Assembly (NCBI GenBank): GCA_021842405.1
Contig: JAKBZR010000014.1
Location: forward strand, 1-51,517
Reading direction: 5' to 3'
Length of the DNA: 51,517 nucleotides
Source: a bacterium
GTDB lineage: Bacteria; Armatimonadota; Chthonomonadetes; Chthonomonadales; JAMCWF01
Part shown: piece by piece, positions 9,650 through 31,646 of the stretch
How positions within the stretch are numbered: the stretch's first letter is position 1
How the letters are laid out: every line of letters begins with the position of its first letter
Position numbers and translations under genes: made by a program
Notes under the pieces: generated by a model
Told to the model about the DNA's origin: nothing
Seen by the model: only the letters and a program-made list of their open reading frames with translations
Databases searched by the model: none

Positions 9650-9864
9650 ATAGACGATTGGGGCGCCCCCCACCCCAGCCCTCCCCCGCTGTATACTGTA
9701 TAGACCGCGAGGGGGGAGGGGGCACCTGCGTGGGCGTCCTCTCACAAGGGGGTGTCATTGCGAGCGAAGCGAAGCAATCTCGTTCCCCTGTCCTCTCCCA
9801 GGATTGGGAAAAGAGTTCGAGTGAGGGCCTGCTACCTAAATCACCCAGAGAACTGAGCTCGTTC
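9650..9864. repeat. Dispersed repeat family A, copy 1 (left-truncated)
   Basis: The 458-base gap between the CoA-transferase and the hydrogenase operon starts with this element. It begins inside the family's C-rich arm (GGCGCCCCCCACCCC at ~9661), includes ATTGCGAGCGAAGCGAAGC at 9759-9777, and ends with the conserved terminus CACCCAGAGAACTGAGCTCG. The left terminus seen in complete copies is missing; it would have fallen at the CoA-transferase stop codon. The rest of the gap holds the operators listed at 9952-9991. Confidence 0.7.
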
Positions 9865-10101: not shown

Positions 10102-11178
10102 ATGGTCGAGGCGATGGAATACCGGGTCCTGTTAAAAAAGGACATTCGCGTTTGGGTCGAGTGGCTAATGGGCAAAGGCGAGCTGCATGCTCCGGTAGCC
10201 AAATCGGCCAGCCACCCTCAGTACCAGTTCGAGAAGATCAGCCAGCCCGACACCGTTTGCCTGGACTATGCAACCACTATCTTGCCCCCCAAGCAGTGCG
10301 TGCAGCCCGTTCGTGAAACACTCATTCGGTTTGACCGGGTGGCAAACCAGTTCACTCTCAGCGACCAGGTCCCTGAGCGCCGGCTCCACATCATTTTCGG
10401 CATCCACACCTGCGATATCCACGCCTTCAATTTTCTCAATACCGTAATGAGGGACGGCAATGCGGACACCCAATTCCTGGCACGCAGCGCCAACACCGCC
10501 ATTATCGGACTGCGGTGCCGGCAGCATTGCGATGATAAGAGCTTTTGCGAGAGCATGGGGACCAATGAACCGCCCGATACCGGTTATGACATTCTGATGA
10601 CCGATATCGGCGATCGCTACTTCCTGGAGCTGGCCACCGAACGGGCTGCCAAACTGGTGGATGACCTGAGCTGCATTCCCCATACCGGCGATGAAGACGT
10701 GGTCAAATGGCGCCAGATGTTGGCGGATAGTAAGAAAAATTTTGATCGCCGCCTGAGCATCAATATTGAGGAGCTGCCCGCCTATTGCGAGGCGAACTAC
10801 CACAGTCCGATGTGGGATGTAATCGGCAAGAAATGTGTGGCCTGCGGAAGCTGCACTCTGGTCTGCCCGACCTGCTACTGCTTTGACATCAGGGATGAGC
10901 TGGATATGAGTCTGCAGGGCGGAGAGCGATACCGGGTGTGGGATTCCTGCCAGTTGGGCGAATTTGCCGCAGTGGCGGGTGGCGTAAACTTCCGCCGCGA
11001 CCGCCGGGATCGCCAACGCCACCGAGTGCACCGCAAAGTGAAATACCCGAAAGAGCGCTACAACCTGTTTGCATGCGTTGGATGCGGGCGGTGTAGTCGA
11101 GCCTGTATCGCCGACATTCAGATGCTCGATATATTAAGACAGTTGGGAGCAAAGAGCCATGAGTTCCAGCGCACTTGA
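10102..11178 (+). CDS. hydB: Group 3b NiFe (sulf)hydrogenase beta subunit, 4Fe-4S protein
   Basis: Iron-sulfur electron-transfer subunit of a cytoplasmic bidirectional NADP-linked hydrogenase / sulfur reductase. The 358-residue protein has two 4Fe-4S motifs near the C-terminus: CVACGSCTLVCPTCYC (about 245-260) and CVGCGRCSRACIADI (about 334-348). The upstream half, including HIIFGIHTCDIHAFNF and GLRCRQHC, is typical of the HydB/HyhB family. GGAGG eleven bases before the ATG fixes the start. It is the first gene of the operon and its end overlaps the gamma subunit by 20 bases. Two operator-like palindromes lie just upstream. Confidence 0.9.
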   Translation: MVEAMEYRVLLKKDIRVWVEWLMGKGELHAPVAKSASHPQYQFEKISQPDTVCLDYATTILPPKQCVQPVRETLIRFDRVANQFTLSDQVPERRLHIIFGIHTCDIHAFNFLNTVMRDGNADTQFLARSANTAIIGLRCRQHCDDKSFCESMGTNEPPDTGYDILMTDIGDRYFLELATERAAKLVDDLSCIPHTGDEDVVKWRQMLADSKKNFDRRLSINIEELPAYCEANYHSPMWDVIGKKCVACGSCTLVCPTCYCFDIRDELDMSLQGGERYRVWDSCQLGEFAAVAGGVNFRRDRRDRQRHRVHRKVKYPKERYNLFACVGCGRCSRACIADIQMLDILRQLGAKSHEFQRT

Positions 11179-12025
11179 AGAAGAATTGACCACTGAATAC
11201 GAGGATTGGACGAACCTATTTCTGCCCCGCACGGCGCAGATACTGAAAAGCACGCCGCTGACCGCCACCGATACGCTTCATCGGCTGCGCTTTCAAAACG
11301 GCGATATCGGGGACTACAAACCGGGCCAGTTCGTGATGGTTTCGATGCTGGGAATCGGCGAAGTTCCCATTTCAATCTGCTCTTCGCCCACCCATATCGG
11401 CGGCTTCGAGCTCTGCGTCCGCTCGGCCGGCACGGTGACCCAAGCCATCAACGAGCTCAATGCCGGGGCGCTCGTCCCGATCCGCGGGCCCTATGGGCGC
11501 GGATTTTCCACCGAGAAAATGGTGGGCCATGACGTGATGATCATTGCCGGAGGAATCGGATTGGCTCCGATGCGCTCGCTAATTCAGTATCTGTTGGATC
11601 AACGCAGCCAATACGGCGAAATTTGGATTCTGTTCGGCGCAAAAAGGCCCGGCGAGGTGCTCTTTCAGGACGAAGTGCTCTCCTGGTCGAGCCGTCCCGA
11701 TATTCATTTCCTGATGACGGTGGATATCGCCAATCGCGCTTGGCGGGGGAATGTAGGACCGGTGACCTCGCTGTTCCATTACGTGAAGGTGGATCCGCAT
11801 AATACCTGCGCCGCCGTCTGCGGCCCTCCCGTGATGTACCGACCCGTCTTGCGGGAGCTTCAGCACCTGGAGTTGCCGGACGCTCAGATGTTCTTTTCCT
11901 TTGAGCGACGAATGAAGTGCGGCCTTGGAAAGTGCGGCCACTGCCTGATTAACGGCCACTACTGCTGCAAAGAGGGCCCGGTGCTCTCTTACGCTGAAAT
12001 TCGAGAGTTGCCGGAGGCAATGTAG
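11159..12025 (+). CDS. hydG: Group 3b NiFe (sulf)hydrogenase gamma subunit, FAD/NAD(P)-binding
   Basis: Flavoprotein subunit that passes electrons to or from NAD(P). The 288-residue ferredoxin-NADP-reductase-like protein has the FAD-binding FKPGQFVMVS-type strand (here YKPGQFVMVSMLG, ~58-70), VPISICSS, GPYGRGF, the nucleotide-binding IIAGGIGLAPMRSL, and the C-terminal 2Fe-2S ligands in CGLGKCGHC...YCCKEGP (~259-277). GGGAG ahead of the ATG lies inside hydB, and the 20-base overlap implies translational coupling. All features fit a complete subunit. Confidence 0.9.
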   Translation: MSSSALEEELTTEYEDWTNLFLPRTAQILKSTPLTATDTLHRLRFQNGDIGDYKPGQFVMVSMLGIGEVPISICSSPTHIGGFELCVRSAGTVTQAINELNAGALVPIRGPYGRGFSTEKMVGHDVMIIAGGIGLAPMRSLIQYLLDQRSQYGEIWILFGAKRPGEVLFQDEVLSWSSRPDIHFLMTVDIANRAWRGNVGPVTSLFHYVKVDPHNTCAAVCGPPVMYRPVLRELQHLELPDAQMFFSFERRMKCGLGKCGHCLINGHYCCKEGPVLSYAEIRELPEAM

Positions 12026-12136
12026 CAAAGCAAGCCGATTGAATATCGGATAAGAGGATAGAGATCGTTCGGATTGAAATAACGCGATGGAGTGCCGCTA
12101 GACGGCTGGCTTCGGTTAATGGATAAGGAGCATCGG

Positions 12137-12898
12137 ATGAAACCAAAAGTGGCGTTTTTTTCATTCAGCAGTTGCGAGGGCTGCCAGCTACAAGCTTTGA
12201 ACCTGGAAGATCAACTGCTGAGCCTGCTGGATATCATTGAAATCGTGAATTTTCGGGAGGCCATTGACGATAAGCTGGAAAATTACGACATCGCATTCGT
12301 GGAGGGAAGCATCTCCCGCTACTCCGATATACCGGAGCTGATAAAGATTCGCAACACGGCCAAGGTGCTGGTTGCGTTCGGCTCCTGCTCGAGCCAGGCC
12401 GGCATTAACGCGATCCGCAACCGCCTTCGTCCCGAAGAGGCCAACGCGATGGTCTACGGTGACCGCGCGGCTTGGGTTGAAACCGGGCACGCCAAGGGAA
12501 TTGATGAGTTCGTTAAAGTGGATTACTACCTGAACGGCTGTCCGATGGATCGGCGTGAGTTTATACGGCTGGTGAAGGCGGCCGCCAGCGGCATACCCTT
12601 CATTATTCCCAAGCTCCCGGTCTGCACCGAGTGTAAGTTGCGCGGCAACGTCTGCATACTGGAGGATCGCAACACCCTGTGCCTTGGCGCGGTCACGCTG
12701 GGAGGTTGCAACGCAATTTGCCCCGCCTATGGGCATCCGTGCGTGGGGTGCCGCGGAATTTTGCCCGATGCCAATATCGAGGGAATGGCCGAACTGTTGC
12801 GTCATCACGGCGCCTCCGATCTCGAAATCGAGCACCTTTATGCGATGTACAACTATGGGCGGATCAGCCTGTTGACCGCTCGAGCCGCATCGCGCTAA
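12137..12898 (+). CDS. hydD: Group 3b NiFe hydrogenase delta (small) subunit
   Basis: Small electron-transfer subunit that pairs with the NiFe large subunit. The 253-residue product starts MKPKVAFFSFSSCEGCQ, with the proximal-cluster CxxC, then VAFGSCSSQAGINAIRNR, YLNGCPMDRREF, a CTECKLRGNVC motif, and GGCNAICPAYGHPCVGCRG. The ATG at 12137 was chosen because AAGGAG lies seven bases upstream; an in-frame ATG 45 bases earlier lacks one and would add residues before the conserved start. There is no Tat signal, as expected for a cytoplasmic group 3 enzyme. Confidence 0.9.
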   Translation: MKPKVAFFSFSSCEGCQLQALNLEDQLLSLLDIIEIVNFREAIDDKLENYDIAFVEGSISRYSDIPELIKIRNTAKVLVAFGSCSSQAGINAIRNRLRPEEANAMVYGDRAAWVETGHAKGIDEFVKVDYYLNGCPMDRREFIRLVKAAASGIPFIIPKLPVCTECKLRGNVCILEDRNTLCLGAVTLGGCNAICPAYGHPCVGCRGILPDANIEGMAELLRHHGASDLEIEHLYAMYNYGRISLLTARAASR

Positions 12899-13002
12899 GA
12901 GTCTGAACCTAGATTTAGGGGATTACAGAGATTAAGTGGTTGTTGAAAAATACCGTAAATCCAATTAATTCCGGTTCAGATTTAGAAAGGGAGGAAAGAA
13001 AT

Positions 13003-14316
13003 ATGCACGGAGCCGTTCAGCTTAATATACACCACGTTACGCGGGTGGAAGGGCACGGCAATATCACCGTCAACGTTCGGGACGGCGAGATCGAGGAGTG
13101 CCGGCTTGAGATCGTCGAATCGCCTCGCTTTTTCGAGGTGATGCTGCAGGGCAGAAGCTATCGGGATGCGGCCCACATCACCTCCCGAATCTGCGGCATC
13201 TGCTCGGTCGGTCATACCACCGCCTCCATCCGGGCGACCGAAAGCGCGCTGGGCATTGAGCCGACCGAACAAACCCTGCTCCTTCGCAAGTTGATCCTGC
13301 ACGGTGAAACCCTACAAAGCCACATTCTGCACATCTACTTTCTGGCGGCCCCCGATTTTCTGGGCGCTCCCAGCGTGATTCCGCTGGCACGAACCCACAC
13401 CGATGTAGTGCTCCGCGCGCTTCGATTGAAAAAATTAGCCAACGACCTCTGTGACTTGATCGGGGGACGCAGCGTTCATCCGGTGGCGATGATGCCGGGC
13501 GGTTTTACGTCCGTTCCTACCATCGCCGGGCTGCAGGAGGTGCGTGCGCGATTGGAAGCGGCGATGGCCGATATGGTTGCCACCGCGGAGCTCTTCGCGA
13601 CGCTCGATATCCCCAAATTCGAGCGCGAGACCGAATACATATCGCTCAAGCGCCCGGATGAGTATGCCTTTTACGATGGAGAGCTCTACTCCTCCGATAC
13701 CGGTATCCACCCGGTTTCACATTACCGGCGGCTGACCAATGAGCAGGTCGTTCAGCGTTCCACCGCCAAGCACGCGCACGCCAACCGCGATTCATTTGCG
13801 GTGGGCGCGCTGGCCCGTTATAATAACAATTTTGATCGGCTGAACCCCTTTGCGAAGGAGATCGCGGACGAAATGTCTCTGCCGGTTCCCTGCTTTAACC
13901 CCTTTATGACCACCGCCGCCCAGGTGGTGGAATGCGCCCACGCGGTGGCGGATGGGATTGCCCTGATTGACGAGCTGATCGGCCGGGGCGTTCAACCGGA
14001 GCCGCTGGTTCAGTCGGCGCGCCTGGACGGGCAGGGCATTGGCGCGGTGGAGGTCCCCCGCGGAATCCTGTACCATGATTACCAGTACGCGGACGGCCGG
14101 ATCACGCGGGCCAACTGCATCATCCCAACCGGCCAGAACGTCGCTAATATTGAGGCGGACATGCGCTTTTTAGTCCCGCAAATCCTGGATAAACCGGAAG
14201 CGGAAATCGCGCAAAATCTGGAAATGCTGGTTCGCGCGTACGATCCCTGTATTTCATGCTCGGCCCATATGCTGGATGTGAAATTCGTGGGCAAGTCGGA
14301 AGGAGAGCAATCATGA
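13003..14316 (+). CDS. hydA: Group 3b NiFe hydrogenase alpha (large) subunit, catalytic
   Basis: Carries the NiFe active site that splits or forms H2. The 437-residue protein has both signature motifs: N-terminal RICGICSVGH (Cys64, Cys67) and C-terminal DPCISCSAH (Cys416, Cys419, His422). The four Cys bind Ni and Fe. A 15-residue tail after His422 is the piece normally removed by a maturation protease, which is encoded by the next gene. The ATG at 13003 follows GGGAGG by about ten bases and gives the family's usual start near HHVTRVEGHGN. Cysteine, not selenocysteine, is at all four positions despite the Sec machinery in the window. The stop overlaps the protease start (ATGA). Confidence 0.93.
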   Translation: MHGAVQLNIHHVTRVEGHGNITVNVRDGEIEECRLEIVESPRFFEVMLQGRSYRDAAHITSRICGICSVGHTTASIRATESALGIEPTEQTLLLRKLILHGETLQSHILHIYFLAAPDFLGAPSVIPLARTHTDVVLRALRLKKLANDLCDLIGGRSVHPVAMMPGGFTSVPTIAGLQEVRARLEAAMADMVATAELFATLDIPKFERETEYISLKRPDEYAFYDGELYSSDTGIHPVSHYRRLTNEQVVQRSTAKHAHANRDSFAVGALARYNNNFDRLNPFAKEIADEMSLPVPCFNPFMTTAAQVVECAHAVADGIALIDELIGRGVQPEPLVQSARLDGQGIGAVEVPRGILYHDYQYADGRITRANCIIPTGQNVANIEADMRFLVPQILDKPEAEIAQNLEMLVRAYDPCISCSAHMLDVKFVGKSEGEQS

Positions 14317-14789
14317 GACCTCGCATCGGCATTATCGGCATCGGCAACACCCTGCTGGGCGATGACGGAGTCGGAATCCGGGTGATCGAGGAGCTTCGCG
14401 ATCGTGGCCTACCGGAGGAGATCGAGCTGGTGGACGGCGGCACCTGCGGCGTGGACCTCTTTTACCTGTTTCAGCGCTACGATGTGGCGGTGGTGGTGGA
14501 CGCGGCCCGGATGGGGCTTCCGCCCGGCACGATCCATCGGGTGAGGCCGGAAGAGGTGACGCGCCTGGCCGACGAGCAGGCCTTTTCAGTCCATGACCTG
14601 GGGCTTTGGGAGGCAATCCAGCTCGGCTCGGTTCTTCATACCCTACCGCCCATTCATATCATTGGGGTCGAGCCGGAGCAATACAATAAACAGCACCAAT
14701 TGTCTGAACGAGTTTCCAATTCAGTTGAGATGGTCGCCCAGCTTGCAATCGAGGTTGCCGAGTGCGAGCTGGGCGACGTGATATCATAA
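14313..14789 (+). CDS. NiFe hydrogenase maturation endopeptidase (HyaD/HycI family)
   Basis: Clips the C-terminal tail of the large subunit once Ni is inserted. The 158-residue protein has the family's GIGNTLLGDDGVGIRV opening (GNxLLxDDGxG with the metal-binding Asp), ELVDGGTCGVDLFYL, VVVDAARMGLPPG and SVHDLGL (metal-binding His), and ends the core with HIIGVEPEQ. The ATG at 14313 overlaps the alpha-subunit stop; AAGGAGAG lies just upstream. An upstream in-frame ATG would read through the large-subunit end and is not used. Confidence 0.9.
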   Translation: MRPRIGIIGIGNTLLGDDGVGIRVIEELRDRGLPEEIELVDGGTCGVDLFYLFQRYDVAVVVDAARMGLPPGTIHRVRPEEVTRLADEQAFSVHDLGLWEAIQLGSVLHTLPPIHIIGVEPEQYNKQHQLSERVSNSVEMVAQLAIEVAECELGDVIS

Positions 14790-22920: not shown

Positions 22921-24351
22921 ATGGATCGGAATGGAATGACTAAGGAAGCTCAAAGCGATCACCGCCGCCAATTGCCATCCGTCTCACGCCTTTTGGAAAC
23001 TTCAGCGATCAAATCGCTCATCGAATCGGAGGGCAGGCCGCTGATACTGAAGGCAATTCGTGAAGAGTTGAGCCGATTGCGCGTCCAACTTCCAAACGGT
23101 TCCGATTCTTATCAAATTTCAGTTGAAAATATCGCCGCAAGCGTAGCGATGAACATGCGCAACCGAATTGATCAATCCATTAAGCCGGTCATCAATGCAA
23201 CCGGCATCATCCTTCACACCGGTTTGGGCAGGGCGGTGTTGCCGAAGGCCGCCATCGAAAACGCCGTTCGGATCGCAACCGGTCACTGCAATCTGGAAAT
23301 CATGCTGGAGACCGGGAACCGGGGCGACCGCCAGGCCCATCTCCAATCGTTGCTGAGTGAGTTGACCGGCGCCGAATCGGCCGCTGTTTTCAACAATAAC
23401 GCAGCGGCGGTGCTGATTGTAATGACCGCACTGGGCGCCGGTAAAGAGGTGATCGTCTCACGAGGTGAACTGGTTGAGATCGGCGGCAGTTTTCGGCTGC
23501 CCGACCTTATTCGAACCAGCGGAGCCACACTGGTTGAGGTGGGAACAACCAACCGGACACGCCTCACCGATTACGCCAATGCACTCAATGACCGGACCGC
23601 CATCATCTTGCGCTGCCACCCCAGCAACTTCCGAATGATCGGTTTTACCGAGGAGGCCACCAATACCGAGCTTGCCGAATTTTGCCGGCAGCATGGTCTG
23701 ATCTTAGTGGACGATCTGGGCAGCGGCGCGTTGGTGGACTGCAGCAACACCGGATTGGAGCCTGCCGTTACCGTGCAACAGTCACTGGCCTCCGGTGCTG
23801 ATCTGGTAACCTTCAGCGGCGACAAGATGCTGGGCGGTCCCCAGGCTGGCATCGTGGTTGGAAACCGGCCTCTCGTTTCTCAGTTGATTTCGCATCCGCT
23901 TGCCCGTGCAATGCGAGTGGACAAGATTACTCTGGCGTTACTGGAGACGGTGCTCCAGCTTTACCTGAATCCGGAACGCGCTGGGTCAGAGATACCCACC
24001 TTATGGAGATTGGGCCGCCCTTTGGCTGAACTGAAAAGGCAGGCGCAGAGATTAGTTAAATTGATGAAAAATGAGCTTCCGGACCGGTATCGGCTTGAAA
24101 TCATCGCTTCTCAGTCGGAGGTCGGCGGCGGATCGCTGCCGGGGCAAACCATAGCCAGTGTCGCGGTTGCCATATCGGATGATCGCGGCAAGATCGAACT
24201 TTTGGCTCAAAAGTTACGAACCGGATCGCCGCCCGTCGTCGGTTATATCAAGGAGGATCGGCTGTGGCTCGATATGCGGACGGTATCGGGCGACGAGGTT
24301 ACCCTGCTGGCCGAGGCGTTACGAGACGCCGGCGCCAACGGTGAAGTATAA
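22921..24351 (+). CDS. selA: L-seryl-tRNA(Sec) selenium transferase
   Basis: PLP enzyme that converts Ser-tRNA(Sec) to selenocysteyl-tRNA(Sec) using selenophosphate. The 476-residue protein (E. coli 463) has the N-terminal tRNA-binding start RQLPSVSRLLETSAIKSLIE, then PVINATGIILHTGLGRAVLP, NLEIMLETGNRGDR, AAVFNNNAAAVLI, VSRGELVEIGGSFRLPD, VGTTNRTRLTDY, LVDDLGSGALVD, and the PLP lysine Lys302 in FSGDKMLGGPQAGIVVG. Followed by selD and then selC, so a full Sec-tRNA charging unit is encoded here. selB is not in the window. The ATG at 22921 gives the conserved N-terminus; a second ATG 15 bases in is an alternative. Confidence 0.95.
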   Translation: MDRNGMTKEAQSDHRRQLPSVSRLLETSAIKSLIESEGRPLILKAIREELSRLRVQLPNGSDSYQISVENIAASVAMNMRNRIDQSIKPVINATGIILHTGLGRAVLPKAAIENAVRIATGHCNLEIMLETGNRGDRQAHLQSLLSELTGAESAAVFNNNAAAVLIVMTALGAGKEVIVSRGELVEIGGSFRLPDLIRTSGATLVEVGTTNRTRLTDYANALNDRTAIILRCHPSNFRMIGFTEEATNTELAEFCRQHGLILVDDLGSGALVDCSNTGLEPAVTVQQSLASGADLVTFSGDKMLGGPQAGIVVGNRPLVSQLISHPLARAMRVDKITLALLETVLQLYLNPERAGSEIPTLWRLGRPLAELKRQAQRLVKLMKNELPDRYRLEIIASQSEVGGGSLPGQTIASVAVAISDDRGKIELLAQKLRTGSPPVVGYIKEDRLWLDMRTVSGDEVTLLAEALRDAGANGEV

Positions 24352-24402: not shown

Positions 24403-24613
24403 AGAGTTCACTTCTCTTGGGATGATTATGGCAGCATCGGGAGTCACCCCCACCCTAACCCTCCCCCACGGAGGGAGGAGGGTGTCAGTGCGAGCGAAGC
24501 GAAGCAATCTCATTCCCCAGCATTCTCACAGGATTGGGAAAAGAGTTGCCTGCCTGGCGGCAGACAGGGAGTGAGGGACTTCTGCCTAAATTGCCCAGAG
24601 AACTGAACTCTTT
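24403..24613. repeat. Dispersed repeat family A, copy 3
   Basis: This fills the 307-base gap between selA and selD. Left end AGAGTTCACTTCTCTTGGGATG, right end TTGCCCAGAGAACTGAACTC at 24592-24610. It contains TGCGAGCGAAGCGAAGCAATC at ~24489 and C/G-rich hairpins. About 45 bases separate its right end from the selD start codon. Confidence 0.72.
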
Positions 24614-24658
24614 CTGAATATCCACGCACAGCATCTATCCCTTGGTGAAAGGATCACG

Positions 24659-25717
24659 ATGGATCAGCGGAAACGGCTGACGCACCTTGCACGATGCGCC
24701 GGTTGAGCGTCTAAAATTGGCCCCGGCCAGCTCGCGCAGGTTTTGCGGGAGCTTCCAAGCGAATTGATAAACGGACTGTTGGTCGGTATCGGAACCGCCG
24801 ACGATGCCGGAGTGGTTCGTCTCGACTCGGATCGGGCGCTAGTTCAAACGCTGGACTTTTTTGCCCCCATTGTGGATGATCCCTACCGATTCGGCCGGAT
24901 TGCAGCCACCAATGCGCTCTCCGACGTCTATGCGATGGCAGCAAAACCGTTGACGGCGATGAATGTGGTTGCCTTTCCCTTAAGTGACCGGGGGAATGAG
25001 GAGCTGCTGGCGATATTGCGGGGCGGTGCCGACGCGGTGCTCGAAGCCGGCGCGGTGCTGGTTGGCGGGCATACGGTTGAGGATACGGAACCGAAATACG
25101 GGCTGGCCGTTACCGGTCTGGTGCACCCCGATCGTATAGCCACCAACGCGGGCGCTCGGCCGGGCGACACCATCATTTTAACCAAGCCGATCGGCACCGG
25201 CGTCATCACCACCGCAGCCAAGATGGATGCCTGCCCGGCCGACGCGATGGAGACCGCCTATCGAATTATGGAGAAGCTGAACCGGAGCGCCGCGCTGGCG
25301 GTGGATGTGATTGGTGTGGGAGCGGAGGGGGTCCACGCGATCACCGATATCACGGGCTTTGGATTACTGGGGCACCTCTATAATGTCGCCCGGGCTAGTT
25401 CGGTCAGCATCGCCATTGATGCTTCAAAGGTGCCGGTCTTACCGGAGGCGATGCGTCTCTGGCACGAAGGATATGCGACTGGAGGGGAGCTTTCAAATCG
25501 GGAGTACCTGGAAGGCAATGTTCAATTTTCATCCACCGATAGGAACGACGTAGTCAACCTCTTTTACGATCCTCAAACTTCAGGAGGATTGGCTATCTTT
25601 GTTGAGCCGAAGGCGGCACCCCTATTGATGGACGAGCTGGAAAAGAATGGGGTGGAGTGGGCAGTCGTCATTGGTGAGGTTGAGGCGCCGCGCCAAGCCG
25701 CTATTCGGATTGAATGA
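24659..25717 (+). CDS. selD: Selenophosphate synthetase, itself a selenoprotein (in-frame UGA)
   Basis: Makes selenophosphate from selenide and ATP. Reading from the ATG at 24659 through an in-frame TGA at 24704-24706 gives 352 residues (family ~345): MDQRKRLTHLARCAG-U16-ASKIGPG, where U16 sits at the catalytic Cys/Sec position of SelD and the following Lys is the family's essential one. After it come VGIGTADDAGVVRLD, VQTLDFFAPIVDDPYRFGRIAATNALSDVYAMAAKP, VGGHTVEDTEPKYGLAVTG, AITDITGFGLLGHL and YDPQTSGGL. A gene finder stopping at UGA would start at an internal codon (24743) and lose the active site. A SECIS-like hairpin follows the UGA. The upstream AAAGGATC is a fair ribosome binding site. 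The stop codon lies inside a family A repeat end. Confidence 0.93.
24704..24758 (+). promoter_or_regulatory. UGA selenocysteine codon and bacterial SECIS-like hairpin in selD
   Basis: After the UGA at 24704, AGCTC (24729-24733) pairs with GAGCT (24749-24753) and CGCA (24735-24738) with TGCG (24744-24747), with one G/G mismatch between and a five-base apical loop GGTTT. TTGG/CCAA (24717-24720, 24755-24758) can close the base. The loop lies about 33 bases after the UGA and contains the GGU expected for SelB recognition in bacterial SECIS elements. Confidence 0.7.
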
Positions 25718-25835
25718 GTTCAGTTCGCTGGGCAATTTAGGCAGGCGTTGCAGGGCGGTATGTCTTGACCCCCATCCCGCCCTTCCCTCTAAGAGGGGGA
25801 AGGAGTTTAGGGGTGAGAACGGGATGAGGAGATTG
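25712..25835. repeat. Dispersed repeat family A, copy 4, overlapping the selD stop
   Basis: The left terminus GAATGAGTTCAGTTC (25712-25726) includes the last codon and stop codon of selD (GAA TGA). The following CTGGGCAATTTAGGCAG, and the segment around ACCCCCATCCCGCCCTTCCC, match copy 2 in reverse orientation. The copy breaks off a few bases before selC; no right terminus is seen. Confidence 0.72.
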
Positions 25836-25841
25836 TAAGAT

Positions 25842-25940
25842 GGGGGCGGTTGGGGTCTGGTGGCTCTCCCGGTCTTCAAAACCGTGCGAGGGGCGAGGAG
25901 ACTCGTCCTTGGTGGGTTCGATTCCCACACGCTCCCGCCA
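25842..25940 (+). tRNA. selC: tRNA-Sec (anticodon TCA)
   Basis: A 99-base tRNA with an encoded CCA. It has an eight-position acceptor (GGGGGCGG against ACGCTCCC, one wobble and one terminal mismatch), a six-pair D stem GGGGTC/GGCTCT with a four-base loop TGGT, anticodon loop CTTCAAA (anticodon TCA, reading UGA), a long variable arm of nine pairs (AGGGGCGAG/CTCGTCCTT) with loop GAGA, and T arm GTGGG-TTCGATT-CCCAC. The long acceptor, six-pair D stem, extended variable arm and UCA anticodon are diagnostic of tRNA-Sec. It follows selA and selD on the same strand. The next ~190 bases (25941-26130) show no feature. Confidence 0.95.
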
Positions 25941-26129: not shown

Positions 26130-26277
26130 GAGACTGGGGAATGAGATTGCTTCGCTTCGCTCGCAATGACTCCTTCGCTCTTCTGGGGGAAGGAGCACGG
26201 AACGGTTGCGAGGGGGAAGGCTGGGATGGGGGGCGACCAATGCTGTCACAAATCATTCCCACAAAACTGAACTCTTT
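26130..26277. repeat. Dispersed repeat family A, copy 5
   Basis: Right terminus CATTCCCACAAAACTG then AACTC (26254-26275). The interior includes AGATTGCTTCGCTTCGCTCG (inverted relative to copies 1 and 3) and GAGCACGGAACGGTTGCGAG (inverse of copy 2). The left boundary is not sharp. Together with copy 4 it brackets selC with inward-facing family ends. Confidence 0.65.
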
Positions 26278-28194: not shown

Positions 28195-29268
28195 GTGATT
28201 GAACTTGATGAACTGCTGACCAGGTGTGCGGAATTAAAATGTTCCGACCTTTTTATTAAGGCGGGGGTCACACCCAACGCTCGACTGAACGGGCGGGTAA
28301 CCACCTTGGATGATAGTTTGCCGCCCCTGACGGCGGAAGATACCCGCCGCATGGCGTACAGTAAGATGGATCCGCACCAGATGGAATTCTTTGATGCCCA
28401 CCATGAAATGGACCTGGCCTTCACGATCGAGGGTGTGAGCCGTATTCGGGGCAGCATTATGCAGCAACGGGGTACGGTCGCCATGTTTTGCCGGTTAATT
28501 CCGATTGAAATTCCTTCGCTGGCTGATCTTGGACTGCCGGAAACACTGGCTGACATGACCAAACATCGAGACGGCCTGGTTCTGGTAACCGGACCCACCG
28601 GGTGCGGAAAGTCAACCACCTTGGCTTCATTAGTCAATATGATTAACGAAACCCGACGGGTCAATATAATCACCATCGAGGATCCCATCGAGTACGTACA
28701 TCGCGACAAGATGGCGATCGTCAGCCAGCGTGAAGTGGGCATTGATACCGATTCATTCCAAGATGCGCTGCGGCACGTTTTGAGGCAGACGCCAGACATC
28801 ATCCTGATTGGTGAGATGCGCGATTTGGAGACCATGAATGTGGCGTTGCAGGCGGCGGAAACCGGTCACCTCGTCTTCGCTACCCTGCACACCGCCAGCG
28901 CCGCTGAAACGTTGGACCGCCTGGCGAACATGTTTCAACCTCACGAGCGCCCCATGCTCTGGCTGAGGTTATCCACATCCCTGCGCGGGGTGGTATCTCA
29001 GAAGCTCATTCCAAACCTGGATGCAACCGGGCGATTGGCCGCGCTGGAAGTGATGCTGGTAACGCCGACCATCGCTAAAATGCTGGAGGAAGGCCGATCG
29101 GATGACATTTACGGCGCAATACGCCAGGCCGGATTGGAGGCTTACTGGGGAATGCAGACCATGAACCAGTGCTTGGTGAAGTTCGCGAAGGCCGGTCTCA
29201 TCACGGAGGAAGACGCGCTGCATAACGCCGGCAACTACTCGGAACTTCGGCAGTTGCTGAGAAGGTGA
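28195..29268 (+). CDS. Type IV pilus retraction ATPase, PilU-like (first of three)
   Basis: Cytoplasmic hexameric ATPase of the PilT/VirB11 family. The 357-residue protein has an N-terminal PAS-like region (LFIKAGVTPNARLNG), Walker A GPTGCGKSTT (~130-139), the Asp box IITIEDPIEYVH, Walker B DIILIGEMRDLET and the His box ETGHLVFATLHT. The AIRNLIRE helix that PilT needs for retraction is degenerate here (TPTIAKMLEEG), while the C-terminal ITEEDALHNAGNYSELRQLL end resembles PilU. I therefore call it PilU-like. The GTG start at 28195 follows GAAAGGG. Two further paralogs follow on the same strand. Confidence 0.85.
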   Translation: MIELDELLTRCAELKCSDLFIKAGVTPNARLNGRVTTLDDSLPPLTAEDTRRMAYSKMDPHQMEFFDAHHEMDLAFTIEGVSRIRGSIMQQRGTVAMFCRLIPIEIPSLADLGLPETLADMTKHRDGLVLVTGPTGCGKSTTLASLVNMINETRRVNIITIEDPIEYVHRDKMAIVSQREVGIDTDSFQDALRHVLRQTPDIILIGEMRDLETMNVALQAAETGHLVFATLHTASAAETLDRLANMFQPHERPMLWLRLSTSLRGVVSQKLIPNLDATGRLAALEVMLVTPTIAKMLEEGRSDDIYGAIRQAGLEAYWGMQTMNQCLVKFAKAGLITEEDALHNAGNYSELRQLLRR

Positions 29269-29439
29269 CAAAAAAGCAAGCTCGCACCGCTTCTTGAACC
29301 GCCTAATCCAGTGGTTCATCTATAATAATTGAAAGCATATCGGCAATCGGCCAGCCGGATAACGATATCAATCGTAATTACAATTGACGATGGTGCTAAA
29401 ATAAAGCGTACCAAGATTTAATTCTGTCAATTAAAGACG

Positions 29440-30549
29440 ATGGCAACCGAAATTACTTACCAAATTGATGATTTGCTACGGCAACTGGTGGCCCGGGACG
29501 GTACCGATCTTCACCTGAAGGTTGATGAGCCGCCGATTATGCGCATTCAAGGCCAACTGATGAGGCTGGACGGGCCAAAGCTCACCGATCGCGATATGTA
29601 TGACCTGGTCTACAGCTTGCTCAATGACGAGAGGAAGGTCCGCTATGAGCAAAATATGGAGCTCGACCTCTCTTATTCGGTGCCCGGACTGTCCCGATTC
29701 CGAATTAACCTATTCCGGCAGCAGCAACACATTGGAGCGGTGCTGCGGGTGATCCCGTTCCGCATTCGCACCATTGATGAGCTGATGCTGCCTCAAATTA
29801 CGAAGGAATTAGCCCTTTTACCCCGCGGCTTGATCTTGGTCACTGGGCCGACCGGCTCCGGCAAATCCACCACACTGGCAGCCCTGATTGATCATATCAA
29901 CGAACAACGCCGTTGCCACATCATAACGATTGAAGACCCCATCGAATACATGCACTCGGATAAACTGGCGACCGTCAACCAGCGTGAATTGGGCGTGGAT
30001 ACTCATTCCTTTGCATCTGCCCTCAAACACGTAATGCGGCAAAACCCGGACGTCATCCTGGTGGGTGAAATGCGTGATCTCGAGACGATCCGGCTGGCCA
30101 TCACCGCGGCTGAAACCGGGCACCTTGTTTTCGCCACCCTTCACACCACCGATGCACCCCAAACGGTTGACCGGATCATTGATGTGTTTGAACCGGATCA
30201 ACAGCAGCAGATTCGGATGCAACTTTCCACCACTCTGCAGGCGGTTGTCTCTCAAACACTGCTCCCGCGTGCGGATGGGAGCGGGCGGCTTGCTGCATTT
30301 GAAATTATGATCTGCACCCCTGCCATTCGCACGTTGATCCGAGAAGGAAAGACCTACCAGATGTACACCGACATTCAAACCGGACGCCAGTTCGGCATGC
30401 AGACGCTCGATGGACATCTGCTGGACCTCGTTCGAAAGGGCATGGTGCTGTTTGAGGACGCGCTGGTTAAATCATCGAACCCCGGCGAATTTCAAGATCG
30501 CTATGAGCGCCATGTTGAGCGAGCCCCCGCGCCGGGGACGGGAGGATAG
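29440..30549 (+). CDS. pilT: Type IV pilus retraction ATPase PilT (second of three)
   Basis: A 369-residue PilT. Walker A is GPTGSGKSTT (~135-144), Asp box HIITIEDPIEYMHSDKLATVNQRELG, Walker B DVILVGEMRDLETIR, His box AETGHLVFATLHTTDAPQTVDRIIDVF. The retraction helix reads TPAIRTLIREGKTYQMY, close to the PilT consensus AIRNLIREGK, followed by GMQTLDGHLLDLVRKG. It is the most canonical PilT of the three. The gap to the first gene is 171 bases, and the third gene starts six bases after its stop. It would drive pilus retraction for twitching motility, DNA uptake or surface sensing. Confidence 0.9.
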   Translation: MATEITYQIDDLLRQLVARDGTDLHLKVDEPPIMRIQGQLMRLDGPKLTDRDMYDLVYSLLNDERKVRYEQNMELDLSYSVPGLSRFRINLFRQQQHIGAVLRVIPFRIRTIDELMLPQITKELALLPRGLILVTGPTGSGKSTTLAALIDHINEQRRCHIITIEDPIEYMHSDKLATVNQRELGVDTHSFASALKHVMRQNPDVILVGEMRDLETIRLAITAAETGHLVFATLHTTDAPQTVDRIIDVFEPDQQQQIRMQLSTTLQAVVSQTLLPRADGSGRLAAFEIMICTPAIRTLIREGKTYQMYTDIQTGRQFGMQTLDGHLLDLVRKGMVLFEDALVKSSNPGEFQDRYERHVERAPAPGTGG

Positions 30550-30554
30550 TTGAC

Positions 30555-31646
30555 GTGCTGGTAACCATTGACCAACTGCTGCAAACCACCGTTCACTACC
30601 AGGCATCCGACCTGCATATCAAGGTGGACAGCCCTCCTCTGATACGAATCCACGGCGACCTGCTGCCTTTGGATATGGATCCACTCAATGAGGAGCAGAC
30701 GAAATACCTGGCGATGAGCGTTTTGAGCGATATTCAGCGAGCCCGATTCGAAGAGGATTTGGAGTTGGATTTCGCCTATGAGATACCGGGGCTGGCCCGC
30801 TTTCGAGGAAATATCTACCAGCAGCGGGGCGCCGTTCAGGTCGCCTATCGCGTGATCCCTCTTCACATCAGCACGATGGAAGAGCTGGGATTGCCGCCGG
30901 TTTGCCGCTACTTCGCCGAGCGCCCACGCGGTCTGGTGCTGGTGACCGGACCGGCCGGCTCCGGTAAATCCACGACCCAGGCCGCCATGATTGACTATAT
31001 CAACCACAACTACCCCCTTCACATCGTGACGGTGGAGGACCCTTTGGAGTTTATTCACGAGGATGACGTGTCCCTCATCAACCAACGCGAGCTGGATAAC
31101 GATACGCTCTCTTTCGCCAATGCGCTGAAGTTTGTTTTGAGGCAGGATCCTGACGTGATATTGATCGGTGAGATGCGCGACCTGGAGACAATTCACCTTG
31201 CCATTACAGCAGCCGAAACCGGCCACTTGGTCTTCGGAACGCTGCACACCACCGATGCCGTTCAGACGGTTGACCGAGTGATTGATGTGTTTCCAACCCA
31301 CCAGCAGCAACAGGTCCGAATGCAGATGTCGGTGAATCTGGTTGGTGTCATCTCCCAGACTTTGATCAAGCAGATGGATGGCAATGGCCGAGTGGCGGCT
31401 TTTGAAACGCTGGTCGGCATTGCACCGGTGCGCAACCTGATCCGAGAAAACAAGACCTATCAGATCAACTCCATCGTCGAGACCGGCCAGCGCCACGGGA
31501 TGATGACACTGGATCAATCGCTGGCCGATATGGTGAAGCGGAAAATTGTAAGCTATGAGGATGCCCTTGCCAAGGCGAAGGCGGTCACTGAGTTTAAAGC
31601 GCTGGTGGGCGAAGGTGAAGCGCGGCCGGAATCGGCGGCCGGCTGA
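30555..31646 (+). CDS. Type IV pilus retraction ATPase PilT paralog (third of three)
   Basis: A 363-residue PilT-family ATPase. Walker A is GPAGSGKSTT, with Ala in place of the usual Thr; the Asp box HIVTVEDPLEFIHEDDVSLINQREL and the Walker B/His box (DVILIGEMRDLETIHL, HLVFGTLHT) are otherwise intact. The retraction helix APVRNLIRENKTYQINS is also intact. The GTG start lies six bases after the previous stop, with GGAGG spanning the junction, so it is translationally coupled. Its divergence from the second copy suggests a duplicated gene with a separate role rather than a recent tandem copy. No pilB, pilC, pilM-Q genes are in the window. Confidence 0.87.
   Translation: MLVTIDQLLQTTVHYQASDLHIKVDSPPLIRIHGDLLPLDMDPLNEEQTKYLAMSVLSDIQRARFEEDLELDFAYEIPGLARFRGNIYQQRGAVQVAYRVIPLHISTMEELGLPPVCRYFAERPRGLVLVTGPAGSGKSTTQAAMIDYINHNYPLHIVTVEDPLEFIHEDDVSLINQRELDNDTLSFANALKFVLRQDPDVILIGEMRDLETIHLAITAAETGHLVFGTLHTTDAVQTVDRVIDVFPTHQQQQVRMQMSVNLVGVISQTLIKQMDGNGRVAAFETLVGIAPVRNLIRENKTYQINSIVETGQRHGMMTLDQSLADMVKRKIVSYEDALAKAKAVTEFKALVGEGEARPESAAG

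Follow-up and report, generated by a model that had tools for sequence, protein, structure and literature searches.

The selD gene of an Armatimonadota bacterium: a selenophosphate synthetase gene with an in-frame UGA at the catalytic position

SelD, the selenide water dikinase, is often a selenoprotein itself (PMC4561486), and its selenocysteine (Sec)-containing form is the second most widespread bacterial selenoprotein family (PMC1794560, PMC13188914). The replacement of Sec by Cys in SelD has also been reported (PMC1794560), and E. coli SelD (PDB 3u0o) features a cysteine, Cys17, at the position where the protein described here has Sec16. A literature search found no selenocysteine study of Armatimonadota. 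The selD gene characterized here is located in a 51,517-nucleotide stretch of DNA from a bacterium of this phylum (contig JAKBZR010000014.1, called the window below; the genome under study is G000). The gene almost certainly encodes a Sec-type selenophosphate synthetase in which Sec16 is inserted at a hairpin-directed UGA. The earlier note on this DNA had read selD as a selenoprotein gene, and it was correct in both observation and interpretation.

The selD gene and its catalytic codon

The selD gene is complete and runs from an ATG at 24659 to a terminal TGA at 25715-25717, with one in-frame UGA at residue 16, exactly where the earlier note had placed it. The features of the gene are as follows.

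24659..25717, + strand: selD, encoding a 352-residue selenide water dikinase (Sec16)
24704..24706, + strand: UGA codon read as selenocysteine, codon 16 of selD (alignment to 3u0o; 54 UGA and 33 Cys SelDs)
24648..24653, + strand: AAAGGA, likely Shine-Dalgarno sequence for ATG 24659 (read from the sequence)
24743..25717, + strand: artefactual truncated ORF with a TTG start inside the hairpin loop (mechanical ORF listing)

The AAAGGA element lies 5 nt ahead of the ATG and is a plausible ribosome-binding site. The read-through protein belongs to the SelD family, as it scores above the curated cut-offs of TIGR00476 (selD; 364 bits, cut-off 125, residues 6-319) and NF002098 (325 bits, cut-off 299) and the whole domain is covered. 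A phmmer comparison with solved structures places U16 opposite the catalytic Cys17 and K19 opposite Lys20 of E. coli SelD, so that U16-A-S-K19 aligns to C17-G-C-K20 and the catalytic residue is followed by a lysine three residues on. SelD loci were extracted by tblastn, and 87 distinct SelDs were obtained from the fetched loci, mainly from Armatimonadota with some from Bacteroidota, Bacillota, Planctomycetota, and others; L037, a duplicate of L008, was left out. The codon at the catalytic site is TGA in 54 of these and TGT or TGC in the other 33 (TGT in L096), and nothing else is found there. The UGA is therefore aligned to Cys in homologues, the Sec/Cys pair by which a bacterial selenoprotein gene is recognized, and the placement of the UGA at the catalytic position in the earlier note is borne out with both Sec- and Cys-type SelDs. 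An upstream start that would supply a Cys-containing N-terminus is excluded, because the UGA lies inside the reading frame, opposite the catalytic Cys of solved SelDs and opposite Cys codons in 33 relatives. About 8 changes between Sec and Cys are placed on the SelD tree, of which at least 3 are forced by well-supported branches, and this fits the published Sec-to-Cys replacement in SelD (PMC1794560).

The UGA could in principle be a nonsense mutation or an assembly error, with selD being a pseudogene or starting at 24743, where a stop-free 324-aa ORF is available. The form that starts at this TTG lacks Sec16 and Lys19, however, and it scores 333 bits against TIGR00476 with the profile matched only from position 37, while the residues before and around the UGA are conserved. 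Additionally, the same UGA occurs in the separately assembled genome of a same-genus bacterium (G056), whose SelD is 89% identical at the protein level, and it recurs in dozens of further genera. The pseudogene and sequencing-error readings are ruled out, with negligible probability, because the site is conserved as UGA or Cys and because most full-length SelD matches in a phylum-wide search have exactly one internal TGA. One SelD homologue, G105:C9:43562-44590, has one TGA and one TAG inside the match and is possibly decayed or misaligned.

With the UGA taken as a Sec codon, the TTG form is an annotation problem. Standard ORF calling gives exactly TTG 24743 and drops the catalytic residue, as the earlier note had warned for automatic annotation, and many Armatimonadota SelD genes are probably truncated in the same way. 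The description of selD as a hidden gene thus holds as a warning to annotators and does not hold as a claim of biological novelty.

Several other features were observed in the window. A 33-nt inverted repeat (94%) surrounds selD at 24582-24614 and 25712-25744, with one arm overlapping the selD stop codon. Its core is CTGCCTAAATTGCCCA, and two more near copies of the core in the window indicate that it is a dispersed intergenic repeat. A second element, GCGAGCGAAGCGAAGCAATCTC, is present in three exact copies (9760-9781, 24490-24511, and 26143-26164) and is part of a longer dispersed repeat. A [NiFe] hydrogenase operon at 10102-14789 encodes iron-sulfur, NAD-binding, small, and large subunits and a HycI-type protease; the large subunit features the C-terminal motif DPCISCSAHML, with Cys and not Sec. 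Three consecutive genes at 28195-31646 encode PilT-like ATPases, as judged by their translated sequences.

The SECIS hairpin

The earlier note had pointed to a hairpin with a GGTTT loop at SECIS distance from the UGA, and this element stands up to closer analysis.

24729..24753, + strand: bacterial SECIS hairpin, stem 24729-24738/24744-24753, loop GGTTT 24739-24743 (fold, comparative stem, two-sided changes, published criteria)

The hairpin features 9 pairs, one G-G mismatch, and a 5-nt loop, the first G of which is located 32 nt after the UGA, and it agrees with the published bacterial SECIS (bSECIS) model on every point (PMC13188914). It folds at -16.9 kcal/mol with a z of -2.58 against dinucleotide shuffles. 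Folding energy alone is weak evidence for the hairpin, because a longer 65-nt stretch around it is not unusual in its fold (z -0.77), and it is the comparative evidence that decides that the hairpin is real. All five inner pairs form in 40 of the 54 Sec genes and in only 1 of the 33 Cys genes, and most Sec genes carry a GGTNC or GGTTT loop. Against synonymous-codon shuffles the mean z is -1.40 (s.e. 0.12) for Sec genes and -0.11 (s.e. 0.17) for Cys genes; only the Sec genes fold better than their shuffles, so the protein sequence does not by itself account for the hairpin.

Compensatory changes in the stem were observed on the SelD tree, from which the first 40 residues of each sequence, spanning the Sec/Cys site and the stretch that encodes the hairpin, had been removed. 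There are about 20 two-sided pair changes over seven pairs, a count that is approximate because the tree is a quick one in which 31 of the 84 inner branches have weak support. One example is the contrast between Q-V-L codons CAG GTN CTG in some genes and E-V-L codons GAG GTN CTC in others. Five loci with the UGA (L018, L031, L035, L044, and L111) have no clean version of the selD hairpin and may use another hairpin form.

Selenocysteine machinery and decoding of the UGA

The genes for Sec synthesis adjoin selD as the earlier note had described, with selA upstream and tRNA-Sec downstream.

22921..24351, + strand: selA, L-seryl-tRNA(Sec) selenium transferase (TIGR00474, 558.8 bits)
25842..25940, + strand: selC, tRNA-Sec, anticodon TCA (ARAGORN; Rfam RF01852, 68.9 bits)

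The order selA-selD-selC is found again in several relatives. The lack of a SelB gene anywhere in the genome had been named as a ground for rejecting the Sec reading; an intact SelB is encoded on another contig (G000:C93) as a 636-aa ORF that scores 360 bits against a 242-bit cut-off. SelA, SelB, and tRNA-Sec are therefore all encoded in the genome, as is characteristic of a genome with a selenoprotein gene, and the selA/selB/selC/selD set is complete. A code change or suppression by which the UGA is decoded as another amino acid, apart from any Sec machinery, has next to no probability. Nothing was found in its favor, the full Sec machinery is present, relatives that lack the UGA invariably have Cys at this site, and UGA is otherwise an ordinary stop codon, at which 14 of the 27 genes counted in the window terminate, selD included.

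For the Sec reading, family knowledge suggests how insertion, SelB binding, and catalysis would proceed. SelA, tRNA-Sec, and SelB would produce and deliver selenocysteine, and SelB would bind the hairpin with the GG loop, 32 nt downstream of codon 16, so that the ribosome inserts Sec at the UGA. Sec16 and Lys19, in a flexible N-terminal loop, are predicted to take part in selenide handling in the ATP-dependent formation of selenophosphate. The selenophosphate would feed SelA, such that SelD would help to make the amino acid that it contains.

Retention of the Sec trait and comparison with known systems

The Sec trait is usually accompanied by formate dehydrogenase (FdhA) and by YbbB. FdhA is absent from the genome under study, in which the only PF00384 protein is a 749-aa NuoG-like subunit by sequence inspection, and a PF00384 search found it likewise absent from the single-contig relative G045. 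The relatives G039 and G040 have a molybdopterin-family (PF00384) protein whose gene is interrupted by a UGA and which is probably FdhA, and for this reason FdhA may have been lost from the lineage rather than never present. The selenouridine enzyme YbbB gave no match above the 220-bit cut-off in 291 Armatimonadota genomes, where the weak matches reach at most 28 bits and mostly cover stretches of about 25 residues; the control genome was positive. YqeB, the product of a Se-cofactor gene, was absent in the nine genomes searched.

These absences favor a reading in which SelD is the sole selenoprotein of the genome and the Sec system serves only to make SelD; SelD as the sole selenoprotein has a published precedent in Helicobacter mustelae (PMC4607533). 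This explanation is improbable here and was rejected when a UGA-containing tandem peroxiredoxin appeared in the same genome (G000:C148; locus L139 1927-3018, + strand). The protein features two AhpC-TSA stretches, and in comparison with solved peroxiredoxins the UGA in its first domain (L139 2185-2187) coincides exactly with their peroxidatic Cys. The gene does not have a clean SECIS hairpin. It is a probable second selenoprotein gene, and the selenoproteins of the genome probably extend beyond SelD. Additionally, G045 has UGA-containing thioredoxin/TlpA-like and AhpD-like genes (L140, L141, and L142), in each of which a hairpin follows the UGA at a distance of about 16 nt. Searches of the genome under study for thioredoxin (PF00085) and MsrA (PF01625) found no UGA-containing member, and a codon-usage scan for UGA-interrupted genes returned none and missed the known selD as well, so that it had no power.

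There is about an even chance that the Sec system of the lineage persists without FdhA, selenouridine synthase, and YqeB and is kept for SelD and a few thiol-peroxidase-type selenoproteins. If this is true, it departs from the common view that either FdhA or selenouridine sustains the trait. Zhang et al. reported in 2006 that Sec-SelD is present in every Sec-decoding bacterium that lacks FdhA, and YbbB in most of them (PMC1794560); the present genome has Sec-SelD with neither FdhA nor YbbB. Genomes of this kind are test cases for the retention of the Sec trait.

Among solved SelDs, the E. coli protein shows full-length homology (219 bits) with the catalytic position and the Lys conserved, and Aquifex aeolicus SelD (PDB 2yye/2zod) is more distant in sequence (186 bits), with a catalytic motif G-C-A-x-K in the deposited sequence that aligns with G-U-A-S-K here. 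The Sec-SelDs of Armatimonadota, including those of G056 and G045, have the same UGA, a GGTNC-type hairpin loop, and often a tRNA-Sec just downstream. Other Armatimonadota SelDs are of the Cys type, and in one clade of these the C-terminus is extended and includes an AhpD-like domain. Extended C-termini were observed in L078, L081, L085-L089, L091, L092, L095, and L096; the three that were read (L078, L086, and L095) consist of a Cys-rich linker and an AhpD/CMD-like stretch with a CxxC motif, which scores 58 bits against PF02627 in L086. The published SelD fusions found are Ndh-SelD and NifS-SelD, and the literature search found no description of a SelD-AhpD-like fusion.

With the Sec-SelD family the present protein shares the UGA at the catalytic position, a downstream bSECIS within the coding region, and full SelD family scores. 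It has no defining difference from the family, and what sets it apart is a host without the usual companions of the trait. The Sec-SelD arrangement is long known and widespread, and it is common to most SelD genes of Armatimonadota, where Sec-SelD is the prevailing form.
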